NCBI GenBank assembly: GCA_020724525.1
Contig: DYGU01000003.1
Span: forward strand, 1 to 38,104
Length of the DNA: 38,104 bases
Direction of reading: 5' to 3'
From: Dehalococcoides mccartyi
Lineage (GTDB): Bacteria; Chloroflexota; Dehalococcoidia; GIF9; DYGU01
Shown here piece by piece: positions 16,352 through 26,880 of the stretch (the stretch's first letter is position 1; every line of letters starts with the position of its first letter). Position numbers and translations under genes: made by a program. Below the pieces are notes generated by a model. That model did no database searches, was not told the origin of the DNA, and was given only the letters and a program-made list of their open reading frames with translations.

Positions 16352-17725
16352 TTAGCTTCTCAAAAAGGCATCTATAGAAGCGGCAGCTCTCTTGCCGGCT
16401 CCCATGGCACTAATGACTGTGGCGGCTCCGGTAACTACATCACCCCCTGCCCACACCCTATCCTTCGTCGTCTTCCCCGTTTCCTCATCGGCTACCACCG
16501 TGCCAGCCTTGGCAATCTCCAAGCCTTTAGTGGTAGACGGCACTAACGGGTTCGGGGTTGTGCCCAAAGCCACAACAACCACATCAACACCAATAATGAA
16601 TTCGCTCCCGGGCTTAATGATAGGTCGTCGCCGCCCACTGGCATCCGGTTCACCCAACTCCATCTCATAGCACTCCATAGCTGTTACCCAGCCTTGGTCA
16701 TTGCCTATAAACTGCTTCGGGTTAGTAAGGAGCTTAAAAATAATCCCCTCCTCCTCAGCATTTTCTACTTCTTCACGACGAGCTGGCATTTCTATCCGAG
16801 AACGCCGGTAAACGATGTAAACTTCTTCAGCACCAAGCCGAAGAGCACACCGGGCAGCATCCATAGCCACATTGCCACCACCAATAACCGCTACCCGCCT
16901 GCCCACTTTTATCGGTGTGTCATACTCGGGGAAGAGATAAGCTTTCATTAAATTTACTCGAGTAAGGAATTCATTAGCTGAGTAAATACCATTGAGGTTC
17001 TCACCCAGGATACCTAAAAACATAGGTAGCCCGGCTCCGGTACCTAAAAAGACGGCATCATACCCCCCTTCCAGCAGCTCATCCACAGTAGCTAACTTAC
17101 CAATGACAGAGTCCAACCTTATCTCTACCCCTAAGGACTTAACATAGTCCACTTCATTCTGGACAATGTTTTTTGGCAATCTAAATTCGGGGATACCATA
17201 CGTCAACACTCCACCGGCTACATGAAGAGCTTCAAAAATAGTTACCTCATGCCCTAACTTGGCTAAATCAGCAGCACAGGTTAAACCCGCTGGTCCGGAA
17301 CCAATTACTGCTACCCTTTTTCCTGAAGATGGCAGCAAAGAAGAGGATGAGCCGGGATTAGAACCGTGCTTAAGTTCCCAATCAGCCACATAGCGCTCCA
17401 GACGACCAATGGCTATTGGCGCTCCTTTCTTAGCCAAAGAACAGACTATTTCACACTGGGTCTCCTGGGGGCAAACTCGTCCGCAAATGCCCGGTAAAGC
17501 GTTCTTACTCTTAAGAATTGTCACTGCCTCTTCTATATTGCCTTCTCTTATCGCCAAAATAAAAGCCGGAATATCTATGTACACCGGGCAGCCCTCAACA
17601 CAAGCACGCTTAGGACACTGGATACAGCGGTTAGCTTCCCGAACTGCCATTTCATCGGTATAGCCAAGGGCTACTTCCTTGAAATTCTTACCCCTGACTT
17701 TCGGGTCTTGCCTCGGCATCGGCAT
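16352..17725 (-). CDS. nfnB: NfnB-like NADPH-binding subunit (GltD family)
   Basis: A 457-residue flavoprotein of the glutamate-synthase small-chain family. N-terminal cysteines C34, C37, C42, C46 and C81, C85, C91, C95 suit two [4Fe-4S] clusters. An FAD motif IGSGPAGLT lies near 142, and a second Rossmann motif VIGGGNVAMDAA binds NAD(P). Because NfnA lies 40 bp upstream in the same operon and no GltA large chain is near, it is best read as the large subunit of the NADH-dependent reduced ferredoxin:NADP+ oxidoreductase (also called SudA). The ATG at 17725 has only a weak ribosome binding site. GltD is the alternative call. Confidence 0.85.
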   Translation of the reverse strand: MPMPRQDPKVRGKNFKEVALGYTDEMAVREANRCIQCPKRACVEGCPVYIDIPAFILAIREGNIEEAVTILKSKNALPGICGRVCPQETQCEIVCSLAKKGAPIAIGRLERYVADWELKHGSNPGSSSSLLPSSGKRVAVIGSGPAGLTCAADLAKLGHEVTIFEALHVAGGVLTYGIPEFRLPKNIVQNEVDYVKSLGVEIRLDSVIGKLATVDELLEGGYDAVFLGTGAGLPMFLGILGENLNGIYSANEFLTRVNLMKAYLFPEYDTPIKVGRRVAVIGGGNVAMDAARCALRLGAEEVYIVYRRSRIEMPARREEVENAEEEGIIFKLLTNPKQFIGNDQGWVTAMECYEMELGEPDASGRRRPIIKPGSEFIIGVDVVVVALGTTPNPLVPSTTKGLEIAKAGTVVADEETGKTTKDRVWAGGDVVTGAATVISAMGAGKRAAASIDAFLRS

Positions 17726-17765: not shown

Positions 17766-18626
17766 TTAAACCTCTACAACTTTGACTATTGGCTTATACC
17801 ATCGCTGGCATTCCCAATGCGTTAATGATCTTATCTCCTCCTCCAGATAAATAGTTCGTCGGGCTGCCAAAAGTTCCCAGTCTACCTCATGACCATCAAA
17901 TTCCGGACCATCAACACAGGTAAACTTAGTTTTACCACCCACTGACACCCGACAACAACCACACATCCCGGTGCCATCAACCATAATTGAATTGAGAGCT
18001 ACCAGAGTTTTCACTCCAAAAGGCTTGGTGGCTTCACTGGTAAGCATCATCATGAAAGTGCAACCATGAGCAAAGACTCGGTCAATCTTTCCGCCTTTCT
18101 CCAGCATTTCTTTCAGCGGGTCATAAGCCCATCCCTTATAGCCAGAAGAACCGTCACCAGTGGTCACGATAAGTTCATCGCTCACTTGTTGCAACTTCTC
18201 CTGCCAGTAAAGTAAGTTCTTAATCCGGGCTTCTATAATACAAATGACTTTATTACCTAAACCTTTCAAGGCTCGAGCTACAGGCAGGATTGCCCCAACC
18301 CCGTAGCAACCACCTGCGCAGACTACAGTCCCAAACTTGTCCAAATGAGATGGTAAACCCAAAGGACCAGCTAAGTTCAAAATATGGTCTCCGGCATTAA
18401 GAGCCGCTAACTTTTGGGTGGAGGTGCCTACTTGCATAATCAGCACTGTAATAGTCCCTTCTTCACCATCCCAGTCAGCCAAAGTAAGAGGAATGCGCTC
18501 CCCAAACTCATCAACCCGAACAACAGCAAACTGTCCTGGCAAAGCTTTTCTGGCTATAGCTGGTGCTTCAATTTTTATCAAATGAATATTTGGAACAAGA
18601 GGCTCATTAGCCAGAATTTTATACAT
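17766..18626 (-). CDS. nfnA: NfnA-like ferredoxin-NADP reductase subunit
   Basis: A 286-residue flavoprotein of the dihydroorotate-dehydrogenase electron transfer / SudB family. The FAD domain carries RIPLTLADW, the NAD-binding half has CAGGCYGVGAILP, and a C-terminal [2Fe-2S] site uses MCGCCRVSVGG (C222, C224, C225) and FTCVDGPEFDGHEVDW (C237). With NfnB it should form the electron-bifurcating transhydrogenase (NADH + reduced ferredoxin + 2 NADP+). ATG start at 18626 behind AGGGATAATT. A relic of a second nfnA start lies at 19122-19163, directly after fdhA. Confidence 0.88.
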   Translation of the reverse strand: MYKILANEPLVPNIHLIKIEAPAIARKALPGQFAVVRVDEFGERIPLTLADWDGEEGTITVLIMQVGTSTQKLAALNAGDHILNLAGPLGLPSHLDKFGTVVCAGGCYGVGAILPVARALKGLGNKVICIIEARIKNLLYWQEKLQQVSDELIVTTGDGSSGYKGWAYDPLKEMLEKGGKIDRVFAHGCTFMMMLTSEATKPFGVKTLVALNSIMVDGTGMCGCCRVSVGGKTKFTCVDGPEFDGHEVDWELLAARRTIYLEEEIRSLTHWECQRWYKPIVKVVEV

Positions 18627-18710
18627 AATTATCCCTAAAAAACCTTAGCAGCTTCCAGTTGGGAAATTTTACCATTTTGCCCTGATTGCCGAAAGCCTGA
18701 TTAGTAAATG

Positions 18711-18805
18711 CCCCACAAAATCTACGATTTTGTGGGGATCCCTGGGTGTAAGAAGCGTGGCAATCTCCGGGATTGCTTCGGGGCTAATGCCCCTCGCAAT
18801 GACAG
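18711..18805. repeat. CATTGCGAG repeat element, copy 3, with extra hairpin
   Basis: The right end CTCGCAATGACAG (18793-18805) and the interior are the reverse complement of much of the copy at 26764-26880. Shared blocks include the GGGCATTAGCCCC and ACACCCAGGG segments. The left part is a perfect 12-bp hairpin CCCCACAAAATC / GATTTTGTGGGG (18711-18737). The second terminal CATTGCGAG arm is missing. Confidence 0.8.
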
Positions 18806-18813
18806 AGTAGGGT

Positions 18814-18842
18814 TTGTAAACAGCTTCATCAATAGTTATAAT
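18814..18842 (+). promoter_or_regulatory. promoter of the small membrane protein gene
   Basis: TTGTAA (18814-18819) and consensus TATAAT (18837-18842) with an ideal 17-bp spacer point toward the plus-strand gene at 18886. The expected start point is about 18849. It begins 9 bp after the repeat element. Confidence 0.65.
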
Positions 18843-18885
18843 AGGTATTAAAGTTGTGCCTACATTGTTAAAAAAGAGCAGGTTA

Positions 18886-19098
18886 ATGAAGAAAGGCTTG
18901 GGAAAGAATATTGAAAAGGTCAAGAAGCTTAAACAAGAGTGGCTAAAAATTGCCGGGGAAAGCCCCGAGCCTATGGATTTGCTCCTTATTTTAATGATGC
19001 GCATTGATGGCAAATTAGCTCGACTCGAAGGTTGGCTGGCTGGTGTAGTAGCCGTAATTATCGGATTACTATTAGCTATCGCCATGGCTGTGTTGTGA
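18886..19098 (+). CDS. small membrane protein of unknown function
   Basis: A 70-residue protein. A basic amphipathic N-terminus (MKKGLGKNIEKVKKLKQEW) is followed by MMRIDGKLARLEGW and one C-terminal transmembrane helix (VVAVIIGLLLAIAMAVL). The helix-linker-single TM plan resembles small XhlA-like or SHOCT-partner proteins, but I do not recognise the family. ATG 18886 is chosen over GTG 18856; the ribosome binding site (GAGCAGG) is modest. It has its own good promoter and lies opposite to the surrounding fdh-nfn operon, inside what looks like an insertion between two copies of the nfnA start. Confidence 0.6.
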   Translation: MKKGLGKNIEKVKKLKQEWLKIAGESPEPMDLLLILMMRIDGKLARLEGWLAGVVAVIIGLLLAIAMAVL

Positions 19099-19121
19099 AA
19101 GCAAGTAAAAGTTGAGAGGAC

Positions 19122-19163
19122 GAATATCAGAACAAAGGGCTCATTAGCCAAAACTCTATACAA
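19122..19163 (-). pseudogene. relic of an nfnA 5-prime end
   Basis: Starting at TTG 19163, the frame reads MYRVLANEPFVLIF, matching the intact nfnA start MYKILANEPLVPNI, and a GGGG ribosome binding site sits directly after the fdhA stop. Similarity ends after about 14 codons, where unrelated sequence begins. The intact nfnA starts about 540 bp further on. This records either a duplication followed by truncation or an insertion that displaced nfnA. Confidence 0.65.
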
Positions 19164-19172
19164 AGTAGCCCC

Positions 19173-21956
19173 TTAAACTTTTTCTATCCTCACCGCAGAG
19201 ACTTTAAGCTCTGGCATCTTGGCAACAGGGTCAAGCACAGTGGCACTAGTCAGAATATTTGCCGCACTCTCAGCAAAATGAAAGGACATATAAACTACGC
19301 CTGGTGGGGATGCTTCTGTCACCCTGGCTTTGGTAATTACTTCACCCCGGCGTGAAATAACCTTTACCTTATCACCCTGATTAATACCAAGCCCCCGAGC
19401 ATCAGCCGGATTTACCTCCACCGCCCCTTCTGGCTCCAAGAAATTGAGCCCGAATACTTTCCGGGTCATTGTACCAGTATGATAATGATAAAGACTGCGC
19501 CCTGTGGTCAAAATCAGTGGGTAGTCTTTGTCAGGCATTTCTGCCGGTGGTTTATAGCTGAGTGGTGTAAATCTACCTTTGCCCCGGACAAAAGTGCCAA
19601 TATGCAGAATAGGTGTCCCCAGGCTTTCTTCATTCGGGCAGGGCCAGCACAAAGATACCTTCTCCAGGCGCTGGTAATTAACACCACCATAGCCTGGCGT
19701 GACTTTGGCTATCTCCTGCATAATCTCGGAGGGATCACTAAAATCAAACCCTTTACCTCCCATCCGTTTAGCTATCTCACAAATAATCCACCAGTCGGGC
19801 TTAGAATTTCCGGTTGGTTTAATTGCTTTTCTCACCCGCTGTATTCTTCTTTCCGTATTGGTAAAAGTGCCATCCTTCTCAGCAAAGCTGCATGCCGGCA
19901 AAACAACACTGGCTAAGCGGGCACTCTCACTAAGAAAAATGTCCTGAGCTATTAGAAATTCAAGCTTCTTTAAAGCTTCTTCGGTATGTTTGGCATCAGC
20001 TTCACTAATTACCGGATTTTCCCCAATAAGATACATAGCCTTGATTTTCCCGCTATGGATAGTATCGAACATCTCTGGTAAAGTTAGCCCAGGTGTCGGG
20101 CTTAAACTCACTCCCCAGAAATCCTCAAACTTCTTCTGAATATCAGGATTATCAATCCTCTGGTAGCCAATATAAACATTAGGTAAAGCTCCCATATCAC
20201 AAGCACCCTGAACATTATTCTGCCCCCTAAGAGGGTTGACCCCCGAGAAAGGTTTGCCAATATTTCCGGTAAGCATAGCTAAATTAGCAATAGCGAAAAC
20301 ATTATCAGTCCCGTGACTGTGTTGAGTAATGCCCATGGCATAAACGATAGTTGCTGGTTTCTGGGTAGCGTATAGCCGAGCTGCTTCAATTATCTTAGCC
20401 TTAGGCACACGGGTAACTTTTTCCACAAAATCTAAGTCAAAATCCTTCAGAGACTGCTTAAAGGCATCAAAGTTCTCACAGCGTTCTTCAACAAAAGCTA
20501 AGTCGGCTAAACCCTCGTCCATAATAACCCGCATCATGCCCATTAACAGAGCCACATCACTACCAGGCAGATGCCTTAGCCAGACATCCGCCCACCGGCA
20601 CAGATTGATTTCTCGGGGATTAGCTACAATTAACTTAGCACCTTTGCTTATAGCTCTTTTTACCTCTAAAGCAATAACCGGGTGACCTGAAGGAGTATTG
20701 CTACCAATAACAAAAACACAGGCAGCATCACCGATATCAGATATAGGGTTAGTCATGGCTCCACTGCCAAAAGCCTGAGTTAAACCAGCTACCGAAGGAC
20801 TATGGCACAGGCGAGCGCAATGGTCGACATTATTGGTTCCCATTATGGCTCGGGCAAATTTCTGAGAGAGGTAATTCTCTTCGTTAGTAATTTTAGCTGA
20901 AGAAATAAGGGCAAACTGGTCTCCCTTATATCTTTGTAATTTGTCAGCTACCAGGTCTAAAACTTCGTCCCAGCTTGCCTCTTTAAATTCCCCATTTTCT
21001 TTGATTAATGGATTGGTCAACCTTTGGGGATGATGAACAAACTCGACAATCCCAAAGCGCCCCTTAACACAGGCTTGTCCTTTATTAGGGGTTCCCTGAA
21101 AAACGAAGTTTTTCAGGGGTAATTTATTAGCCAAAGCTTCCAATATTGGAACTGAGCTGATAATCCGTTCTTTCTTTATCTCCAAGTTTAACTGGCAACC
21201 AACCCCACAATAAGGACAGATTGTAGTGATAACACGCTCGGGTAACCCTTCCCATTTAGCCGCTCGTTCGGCTAAGGCGCCTGTAGGACAGGCATCAACA
21301 CAAGCACCACAAAACTGACAGCCTGCTTCCTCCAAGGAGTAATCAAAAGCAGTCCCGACTAAAGCATCACTGCCCCGATAAGTAAAAGCAATCGCCCCGA
21401 CTCCTCTTATCTCCTGACAGACACGGACACATCGCCCGCACAGGATGCACAAGTTATAGTCCCGGTCAAAGAAGGGAGAATCCCTCAAGATGGGTAAATC
21501 ACGGTAAGTATAAGGAAGTTTGACCTCTGCCAAACCAACATAATCAACCACCTTTTGTAACTCGCAGCGTCCATTTTTGGGACACATAATACAACCTGTG
21601 GTCACTGCCACCTTTCGCAAGCAGATATGGTAAGGCTGGCACCGCTCTTTTCTATCACAAACAAGGCAAGTATGGGGGTGCTCGGTAAGAACCAGTTCTA
21701 AAATGTTACGCCTTAGTTCTTGTATTTGGGGAGTGTTAGCCTTAACCACTATACCGCCCATAGCCGGGGTGGTGCAGGCAGTAGGGAAACCCCTCATCCC
21801 TTCCACTTCTACAATGCACATCCGACAGCTTCCATAAGGGGACAGACTCGAATGATAGCAGAGGGTAGGAATATAAATGCCTATTTCCTGAGCCGCTTCA
21901 AGAATTGTTGCCCCATCTCTGGCAGTAACTTGCTGACCATCAATAGTCAGATTTAT
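19173..21956 (-). CDS. fdhA: NAD-linked Mo/W formate dehydrogenase, catalytic subunit
   Basis: Molybdopterin oxidoreductase matching formate dehydrogenases along its length. The N-terminus carries a NuoG-like [2Fe-2S] domain (YGSCRMCIVEVEG), HPHTCLVCDRKERC plus a second CIMCPKNGRCELQ, and a two-cluster ferredoxin domain (CILCGRCVRVC, CQFCGACVDACP). The FdhF-type core follows with CPYCGVGC, CARLCHSPSVAGL and RGQNNVQGACDMGALP. Cys (TGC at 20805-20807) replaces the selenocysteine of E. coli FdhF, and the next His is kept. The first ATG (21821) lies inside the [2Fe-2S] domain; homology runs 45 codons upstream to NLTIDGQQVTARDG, where AAGGAG precedes ATC-ATA. I therefore place the start at ATA 21956 (927 residues). 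The partners are the NuoE/NuoF-like genes upstream. Confidence 0.9.
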   Translation of the reverse strand: MNLTIDGQQVTARDGATILEAAQEIGIYIPTLCYHSSLSPYGSCRMCIVEVEGMRGFPTACTTPAMGGIVVKANTPQIQELRRNILELVLTEHPHTCLVCDRKERCQPYHICLRKVAVTTGCIMCPKNGRCELQKVVDYVGLAEVKLPYTYRDLPILRDSPFFDRDYNLCILCGRCVRVCQEIRGVGAIAFTYRGSDALVGTAFDYSLEEAGCQFCGACVDACPTGALAERAAKWEGLPERVITTICPYCGVGCQLNLEIKKERIISSVPILEALANKLPLKNFVFQGTPNKGQACVKGRFGIVEFVHHPQRLTNPLIKENGEFKEASWDEVLDLVADKLQRYKGDQFALISSAKITNEENYLSQKFARAIMGTNNVDHCARLCHSPSVAGLTQAFGSGAMTNPISDIGDAACVFVIGSNTPSGHPVIALEVKRAISKGAKLIVANPREINLCRWADVWLRHLPGSDVALLMGMMRVIMDEGLADLAFVEERCENFDAFKQSLKDFDLDFVEKVTRVPKAKIIEAARLYATQKPATIVYAMGITQHSHGTDNVFAIANLAMLTGNIGKPFSGVNPLRGQNNVQGACDMGALPNVYIGYQRIDNPDIQKKFEDFWGVSLSPTPGLTLPEMFDTIHSGKIKAMYLIGENPVISEADAKHTEEALKKLEFLIAQDIFLSESARLASVVLPACSFAEKDGTFTNTERRIQRVRKAIKPTGNSKPDWWIICEIAKRMGGKGFDFSDPSEIMQEIAKVTPGYGGVNYQRLEKVSLCWPCPNEESLGTPILHIGTFVRGKGRFTPLSYKPPAEMPDKDYPLILTTGRSLYHYHTGTMTRKVFGLNFLEPEGAVEVNPADARGLGINQGDKVKVISRRGEVITKARVTEASPPGVVYMSFHFAESAANILTSATVLDPVAKMPELKVSAVRIEKV

Positions 21957-22005: not shown

Positions 22006-23913
22006 CTAACTTCCTTTTACCAGGATAGGCTCCCGAGGAACTTCAATTTTAACTCCTGAAACCTTAACCACAGCCGAAAACCGTTTCGGACAAACATCAA
22101 GACATGTCCCACACTCAATACACTTGTCTTGGTCAATAACATGTATCAGCCTTTTGCCACCACGAATTGCCTCAACCGGACAATTCCTGAGACAGATCAT
22201 GCATCCGGCGCACTTATCTGGAAGAATGTAAAAGGAAATTAGTTTTCTGCACACCAAAGCCGGGCACCGTTTTTTGTTAATGTGTTCTTCATACTCGCTA
22301 CGGAAGTAGCGAATAGTAGTAAGTACTGGGTTTGGTGCTGTTTGCCCCAGACCGCAGAGGGAGCCTGATTTAACAGTATTAGCTAATCTCTCCAATTGCT
22401 CTATATCTTCCAGTTTACCTTCCCCTTTACTTATCCGCTCCAGAATATTAAGCATTTGTTTTGTTCCCACCCGACACGGCACGCATTTGCCACAGGACTC
22501 CGCCTGAGTGAAAGAAAGAAAATACTCGGCTATATCAACGACGCAGGTATCTTCATCCATAACAATCATCCCTCCCGACCCCATAATAGAACCAGCATCA
22601 GTAAGAGACTCATAATCAACCGGCAGGTCAAGTAAATTTACTGGTAAACAACCCCCAGAAGGACCACCCGTCTGCACTGCTTTGAATTGCTTCCCCTTTA
22701 AAATACCACCGGCTACCTCATAGATAACCTCACCCAATTTAATACCTAAAGGTACTTCAATAAGACCAGTCCTCTCTACTTTCCCGACTAAGGCAAAGGT
22801 TTTGCTTCCCTTACTTGTTTCCGTTCCATACTGAGCATACCACTCCCCTCCCTTCTCTAAAATCACGGCAACATTTGCCCATGTCTCCACATTATTAATA
22901 TTCGTTGGTTTTCCCCATAATCCAGACTGGGCTGGAAAGGGAGGGCGAGCCCGAGGCATACCCCTCTTGCCTTCAATAGACGCCATTAAAGCTGTTTCTT
23001 CTCCACAGACAAAAGCCCCGGCTCCTTCTTTAATTTTGATATGAAAATTAAAACCGGAGCCCAAAATATTATCCCCCACAAACCCATACTCCTCCATTTG
23101 AGGCAAGGCGATATTTAATCTCTCTAATGCTAATGGATATTCAGCCCGGCAGTAGATATAACCTTGATTAGCACCGATAGCGTAAGCCCCGATAACCATA
23201 CCTTCTAAAACAGAATGAGGGTCACCCTCCAGCAAAGACCGGTTCATAAAAGCTCCAGGGTCACCCTCATCAGCGTTGCAGATAATATATTTCTCTGGGC
23301 TCAGTTCTCTCCGACAAATATCCCATTTTAGCCATGTGGGGAAACCAGCCCCACCCCTCCCCCTCAAACCAGATTTCTTAATTTCCTGAATAATCGCTTC
23401 CGGTTCCATTTTTAGTGCCCTGACCAGACCCTTATAACCATCATTAGCAACGTAATGGTTGATATTCTCCGGATCAATAAAACCGCAATTGCGCAAAACT
23501 ATCCGCACTTGTGGCTTAAGCACCGGTAGGTCAAACAGAGCCGGGATGCCATCAACTCTACCATCACCAATATATCCTAATGCCAGATCAGGGCGAGTAT
23601 TATCTTTAATCAGGTAATCTTCAATAAGTTGAGACACAATCTCTGGAGTTAAATTACCGTAAGAAATGCGCGGTCTGCCTGGTTTTATAATATCTACCAT
23701 AGGCTCGGCGTAGCACAGACCGATACAGCCGACCTGGATAACCTTAGCCTCAATATTGAACTCTTTTAATGTTTTGTTAATGGCATCAATAACTGCTAAG
23801 GCTCCTGCCGAACGACCACAGGTAGCAGCCCCAACTAATAAACATGGCTTTTCCACTTGTTCCAGCACTCGCCATTCCAGAAGAGCTTTCTTCTCAATCT
23901 CCTCGAAAGTCAT
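22006..23913 (-). CDS. NuoF/HydB-like NADH-binding subunit of formate dehydrogenase
   Basis: A 635-residue diaphorase subunit. A thioredoxin-like [2Fe-2S] domain (C24, C32, C63, C67) is followed by the NuoF domain with GRGGAGFPTW near 185, ICNADEGDPGAF (FMN) near 211, GAGAFVCGEETALMASIEG (NADH) and SCGKCVPCRVGTKQ ([4Fe-4S]). A C-terminal two-cluster ferredoxin domain follows (CAGCMICLRNCP, CIECGTCLDVCP). This architecture is that of NAD-reducing or electron-bifurcating hydrogenase/formate dehydrogenase subunits, not respiratory complex I. I start at ATG 23913 behind AAGGAG; an in-frame TTG at 23934 overlaps nuoE. The stop is 50 bp before the fdhA start. Confidence 0.93.
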   Translation of the reverse strand: MTFEEIEKKALLEWRVLEQVEKPCLLVGAATCGRSAGALAVIDAINKTLKEFNIEAKVIQVGCIGLCYAEPMVDIIKPGRPRISYGNLTPEIVSQLIEDYLIKDNTRPDLALGYIGDGRVDGIPALFDLPVLKPQVRIVLRNCGFIDPENINHYVANDGYKGLVRALKMEPEAIIQEIKKSGLRGRGGAGFPTWLKWDICRRELSPEKYIICNADEGDPGAFMNRSLLEGDPHSVLEGMVIGAYAIGANQGYIYCRAEYPLALERLNIALPQMEEYGFVGDNILGSGFNFHIKIKEGAGAFVCGEETALMASIEGKRGMPRARPPFPAQSGLWGKPTNINNVETWANVAVILEKGGEWYAQYGTETSKGSKTFALVGKVERTGLIEVPLGIKLGEVIYEVAGGILKGKQFKAVQTGGPSGGCLPVNLLDLPVDYESLTDAGSIMGSGGMIVMDEDTCVVDIAEYFLSFTQAESCGKCVPCRVGTKQMLNILERISKGEGKLEDIEQLERLANTVKSGSLCGLGQTAPNPVLTTIRYFRSEYEEHINKKRCPALVCRKLISFYILPDKCAGCMICLRNCPVEAIRGGKRLIHVIDQDKCIECGTCLDVCPKRFSAVVKVSGVKIEVPREPILVKGS

Positions 23914-23930
23914 TGTTCTCCTTAGTCCGC

Positions 23931-24401
23931 TCAATACTTACCCAGAATATCCTTAACTTTAGTGGTGGTCATCCGACCATGAACATCTTTATCAACAACC
24001 ATTACTGGAGCTAAGGCACAACAGCCAAAACAAGCTACCCTCTCCAAACTGAACTTGTAGTCTGAGGTTGTGCCACCAGGTTGGACACCTAACTCCCTCT
24101 CTACCGTTTCTAAGATGTTTGAACCACCTCGCACATGACAGGCAGTACCTAAACATACTTTCAGACTATGCTCCCCTCGGGGGGTAAACCGAAATTGGGC
24201 ATAAAAAGAAGCAACCCCAAAAACCTCACTCTCTGATATCCCGGAAAATTTAGCTATTTCGGAAATCGCCTCTTTAGAAAGATAACCTAAGTTTTCCTGG
24301 ACTTTTTGTAATAAGGGAATGACTGCCCCTTTTTCTGCCTGGTAGGACTTGAATATTTCAGCTAATTCATGGGGCACAACTATTTCCTCGGCTCGACTCA
24401 A
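23931..24401 (-). CDS. NuoE-like [2Fe-2S] subunit of formate dehydrogenase
   Basis: A 156-residue thioredoxin-like ferredoxin of the NuoE/HydC family, the first gene of the operon. The cluster ligands are C83-x4-C88 (CLGTACHVRGG) and C124-x3-C128 (RVACFGCCALAP). The helical N-terminus has IPLLQKVQENLGYLSKEA, typical of the family. The long frame starts at TTG 24401 without a good ribosome binding site. GTG 24377, preceded by GAGGAA, is a good alternative (148 residues) and fits the promoter at 24412-24440. It passes electrons between NuoF-like FMN and the Fe-S chain. Confidence 0.93.
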   Translation of the reverse strand: MSRAEEIVVPHELAEIFKSYQAEKGAVIPLLQKVQENLGYLSKEAISEIAKFSGISESEVFGVASFYAQFRFTPRGEHSLKVCLGTACHVRGGSNILETVERELGVQPGGTTSDYKFSLERVACFGCCALAPVMVVDKDVHGRMTTTKVKDILGKY

Positions 24402-26730: not shown

Positions 26731-26763
26731 TAAGAGATAGCTAAAGTGTTTATCAGCCCCGTT

Positions 26764-26880
26764 CTGTCATTGCGAGGGGCATTAGCCCCGAAGCAATCCC
26801 AACAGATTGCCACGCCTCCTACACCCAGGGTCACCATAAAATCATAGATTTTGTGGGGTATTCCTTCGGCTCGCAATGAC
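26764..26880. repeat. CATTGCGAG inverted-repeat element, copy 4
   Basis: A 117-bp element bounded by CTGTCATTGCGAG (26764-26776) and CTCGCAATGAC (26870-26880). The interior contains a GGGGCATTAGCCCC palindrome and a degenerate ATAAAATCATAGATTTTGTG hairpin. It is the reverse-complement relative of the copy at 18711-18805 and makes up most of the roughly 320-bp gene-free stretch 26674-26994. Confidence 0.85.

Follow-up and report, generated by a model that had tools for sequence, protein, structure and literature searches.

The locus raises the question of how nfnA came to be separated from fdhA by an interval that holds a broken copy of the nfnA start, a small gene of opposite orientation and a dispersed repeat. 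In the first-pass annotation of the window (i.e. the whole analysed stretch of 38,104 nucleotides) it had been proposed that an insertion or duplication split an original fdhA–nfnA junction. Here, we compare the interval with its own genome and with related loci and weigh the ways in which it could have originated.

The gene run and its interval

The gene order on the minus strand is hydC, hydB, fdhA, the interval, nfnA, nfnB and then mutS, as assigned with Pfam and NCBIfam (Table 1). The N-terminus of FdhA is a NuoG-like iron-sulfur region, and the intact NfnA reaches 378.8 bits against a curated cut-off of 220, which identifies it as NfnA of the PRK06222 type. By profile these neighbours are of the same kinds as the genes for the NfnAB transhydrogenase and the HylCBA/FdhA-type electron-bifurcating formate dehydrogenase portrayed in excerpts of PMC6405883 and PMC5736913; what is described here differs from those systems in being a spacer between genes and no new enzyme. 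All matches of a plasmid search with NfnA stayed below 60% identity, and Rfam yielded 0 matches within the window.

Table 1. Features of the gene run and of the interval between fdhA and nfnA
Feature	Position	Strand	Description and evidence
hydC	23931..24401	-	NuoE-like; upstream member of the same gene run; Pfam
hydB	22006..23934	-	NuoF-like; upstream member of the same gene run; Pfam, NCBIfam
fdhA	19173..21821	-	formate dehydrogenase alpha subunit, 882 aa; Pfam; NCBIfam TIGR01591, E 1.4e-252
nfnA remnant	19121..19163	-	start copy (TTG, YRVLANEPFV...); repeat finder, local alignment, genome pattern search
small protein gene	18886..19098	+	70 aa; codon score; opposite strand to operon
decayed MITE-like dispersed repeat	18661..18827	-	carries CATTGCGAG; genome DNA search
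nfnA, intact FAD/NAD-binding subunit	17766..18626	-	286 aa; NCBIfam NF004862, E 1.7e-113; tree
nfnB, GltD-like subunit	16352..17725	-	457 aa; Pfam, NCBIfam, tree

The stop codon of fdhA (19173–19175) is followed by GGGGCTACT and then by the TTG of the nfnA remnant at 19163, which thus begins 9 nt past the stop and is preceded by a GGGG site. This second nfnA start had already been recognised, with 14 codons assigned to it; the copy is real, but it opens with TTG and only about 11 codons are in frame; these differ from the intact start at 6 of 33 nucleotides and are followed by a 1-nt gap. DNA likeness to nfnA extends beyond this frame break to about 19121. The intact gene, previously placed about 540 bp further on, starts with the ATG at 18626, and the repeat finder gives a direct repeat of 48 nt (77%) with a spacing of 537 nt. 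Local alignment of both starts covers 57 nt with a score of 46, the maximum among 3000 dinucleotide shuffles of the interval being 30. The pattern of the nfnA start, with up to 3 mismatches allowed, occurs in the 1.34-Mb genome at 2 places only, namely the remnant and the intact gene (reversed control 0), and among 47 distinct nfnA starts the closest to the remnant is the window's own (28/34 nt; 26 and 25 for the relatives L061 and L062 described below). Extension of the repeat into the end of fdhA is not supported: the 24 nt upstream of intact nfnA rank 12th of 48 upstream stretches, and their likeness to the fdhA end is equalled by 410 of 3000 shuffles.

Truncated gene remnants, or pseudogene scars, arise from insertions or deletions in bacterial operons. 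As in such scars, the start survives here, runs out of frame after few codons and stands beside an intact copy; nothing essential differs, the two copies being separated here by a dispersed repeat and a small gene unrelated to them. The remnant combines significant similarity to an intact gene with a disrupted frame, as a pseudogene fragment does, and most likely has no function. A check for selection on its 5 substitutions past the start codon gave a BLOSUM score that is equalled in 9% of random sets.

The plus-strand gene that had been noted in the interval shows coding-like codon usage from the ATG at 18886 (the ORF list starts it with GTG at 18856), its score being 0.214 per codon; genes of the window, cut into 71-codon pieces, give 0.168 (s.d. 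0.075). The promoter proposed for it did not hold up: the match upstream (18814–18842, 10/12) is no better than chance, with 1 found and 1.3 expected. Inspected by eye, the protein has a charged N-terminal half and a single hydrophobic stretch in its C-terminal part. No family was found in Pfam, NCBIfam or PHROGs, the sole Pfam row (E 0.31) being far below the cut-off. In other genomes the best match (L065) has 33% identity over 61 residues with E 0.001, and we do not regard such weak matches as establishing a family. A phage source was considered and rejected, as there is no PHROGs family and 0 of the 43 pattern hits in viral contigs were confirmed by tblastn.

The repeat CATTGCGAG, also pointed out before, is part of a dispersed element that occurs many times in the genome. 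With the interval as DNA query 73 matching places were found at E up to 1, a count in which the interval itself is included and the palindromic part is read both ways; one place lies outside the repeat. Mobility of the interval as one unit was rejected, since the small gene is single-copy (a search of its own genome returns itself alone) and all but one genome match fall in the repeat part. The search elsewhere in the genome, which had been recommended, thus recovers the repeat and not the small gene.

MITEs are miniature inverted-repeat transposable elements. From 29 loci examined, 11 copies of the dispersed repeat could be placed with both ends; they measure 111–195 nt and their ends are inverted repeats, the 35- and 34-nt ends aligning with one gap. 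Direct repeats of 7–10 nt are found at the ends of 6 of these 11 copies, compared with 6 nt at most in 110 mismatched pairs. Judged from the anatomy of its sequence, the dispersed repeat is probably a MITE, with which it shares dispersed short copies and inverted ends of about 35 bp; apparent target duplications are seen in 6/11 copies. It differs in that the window copy is decayed, and it is not assigned to a named family. In the window copy the right terminal repeat is degenerate and no target duplication was recognised. Among the papers listed for CATTGCGAG when the literature was searched, none had a title on such a repeat. A second copy is present in the window at 26747–26862 (86% identical over 117 nt).

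Junctions in related genomes

Scanning species genomes with NfnA revealed three loci: L061 and L062, both from Nitrospirota and with 79% identity, and a distant match of 27% in Novosphingobium. Both Nitrospirota loci have the order hydC-hydB-fdhA-nfnA-nfnB with fdhA and nfnA contiguous, the distance from the fdhA stop to the nfnA start being 13 and 11 nt, respectively. It is this place of nfnA that the remnant occupies in the window. In the FdhA tree the window groups with L061 and L062 (support 100/100), and so it does in the NfnA tree (99/90), where G008 from the same order comes next. NfnB and HydB of the two Nitrospirota fall outside, with 62–63% and 68% identity to the window, whose NfnB and HydB are placed among those of the same order (identity to G008 85% and 78%, respectively). 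Because the history shared with Nitrospirota is absent from the neighbours hydB and nfnB, the trees suggest that the fdhA–nfnA pair was exchanged horizontally with Nitrospirota, in either direction.

For the same order, 60 genomes including the window's own were searched with FdhA and loci were taken for the best matches. The junction count comprises 15 other genomes whose FdhA has an identity of 58% or more and extends to the C-terminus; G002, G023 and G039 (47–49% identity), G021 (C-terminus missing) and matches without a locus, e.g. G056 and G059, were left out. In none of the 15 does fdhA lie directly against nfnA. Next behind fdhA comes a NuoG-like/GltD-like fusion gene in four (G008, G045, G049, G018), a hydC homologue in another four (G006, G022, G051, G057) and a remnant of the hydC start followed by nfnA in one (G038). 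Five have no operon gene behind fdhA within the available bases (G007, G009, G011, G017, G037), and in G040 the contig ends there. The other genomes searched all lie outside the window's family, and an empty site was thus not observed in a close relative. A relative with the same interval, by which the match of the two starts could have been explained as coincidental, was looked for in the relatives' junctions and none was found.

Three same-order genomes carry comparable scars. G012 has hydC residues 1–65 joined in frame to fdhA residues 850–882. In G038 the spacer from fdhA to nfnA contains a hydC start of about 40 codons, at the place taken by a full hydC in G006. G003 contains an nfnA start fragment matching residues 1–33 together with a decayed piece of hydC. 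These three were met in loci chosen for nfnA or fdhA and do not represent a count over all genomes. At L120 (1950–2320) the in-frame join of a hydC start to an fdhA end gives an open frame of 105 codons, which marks a deletion and may still be read.

Possible origins of the split junction

That the remnant lies where it does and most resembles the nfnA of the window itself means that nfnA very likely once began right behind fdhA. Likewise, as L061 and L062 are the closest kin for both FdhA and NfnA and have the genes contiguous, contiguity very likely preceded the split. Four things are directly observed: the repeated nfnA start, a gene with coding-like codon usage, the dispersed repeat and contiguity in two relatives. 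From these we infer how the block was inserted and in which order the events took place, as follows. In the ancestor nfnA would have stood immediately behind fdhA in a hydC-hydB-fdhA-nfnA-nfnB run. A block of about 470 bp, consisting of the small membrane-protein gene on the opposite strand and the MITE-like repeat, would have entered between the two genes and left roughly the first 45 bp of nfnA in two versions, a broken remnant behind fdhA and the intact gene beyond the block. After the split nfnA could be transcribed by read-through from fdhA or from a start of its own, and either may hold.

We give an even chance to the interval being such a rearrangement scar, formed by insertion of a block with short duplication of the nfnA start. 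For it speak the repeat, which is far above chance and restricted in the genome to the remnant and the intact start, the coding-like nature of the small gene, and the inverted ends of other repeat copies, some of them with apparent target duplications. Against it stand the window MITE copy without target duplication, the other genes that mostly follow fdhA in the same order, and the 24 nt upstream of intact nfnA, which are unlike the fdhA end. Since a longer copy would be expected if the entire junction had simply been duplicated, this upstream region implies either a short duplicated stretch or a lost second nfnA. In the latter case two nfnA copies would once have existed, one behind fdhA and one before nfnB, and a deletion would have taken most of the first and fused its start to the upstream DNA of the second. 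We regard this as a serious though less probable explanation: it accounts for the unlike upstream region and has comparable deletion scars in the same order (G012, G038, G003), but no other trace of an extra nfnA copy was found in the genome, and FdhA and the intact NfnA have the same closest relatives, as expected for an original partner. Because of these shared relatives we favour the intact nfnA as the putative original partner of fdhA, displaced by the block. The split by insertion or duplication proposed in the first-pass annotation is supported in part, by the contiguity in L061 and L062, whereas the same order offers no contiguous pair (0/15) and loss of a second copy fits too.

Two further readings concern the remnant itself. 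From its GGGG site and TTG start a 164-codon frame (18669–19163) runs antisense to the small gene, is open throughout and has a plausible ribosome site, so that a chimeric protein or leader peptide could be made from it. Its codon score (-0.121 overall, -0.252 where antisense to the small gene) lies within the non-coding range and no Pfam, NCBIfam or PHROGs family was found, which makes use of this start very improbable; that it was retained as a leader or chimeric frame which tunes the coupling of fdhA and nfnA is no more probable. A mere chance match in an interval that was always present would agree with the missing fdhA–nfnA contact in all 15 same-order genomes. It is hardly credible and was rejected, as none of 3000 shuffles scores as high, the match follows fdhA at the expected site, on the expected strand and in the expected order, and the genes are contiguous in two relatives. 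Whether insertion with duplication or loss of a copy took place, the split junction is ordinary genome wear.

Neighbouring modules in the same order

The locus illustrates the shuffling of electron-bifurcating enzyme modules in this lineage with gene starts remaining as scars, and it is itself of mixed composition, the fdhA–nfnA pair siding with Nitrospirota and the neighbours hydB and nfnB with their own order. In several same-order genomes (L114, L115, L116, L120) a NuoG/GltD-like fusion gene lies directly before nfnAB, the longest frames having 586–734 codons, and in G006 it is accompanied by its own hydC and hydB. This arrangement resembles the StnABC set; StnABC and Nfn are almost mutually exclusive in acetogens according to an excerpt of PMC7483475. 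FdhA varies at residue 339, which is Cys in the window. Seven same-order genomes (G006, G018, G038, G040, G049, G051, G057) have TGA at this position, presumably encoding selenocysteine, and the stop is absent in G008, G045 and both Nitrospirota.
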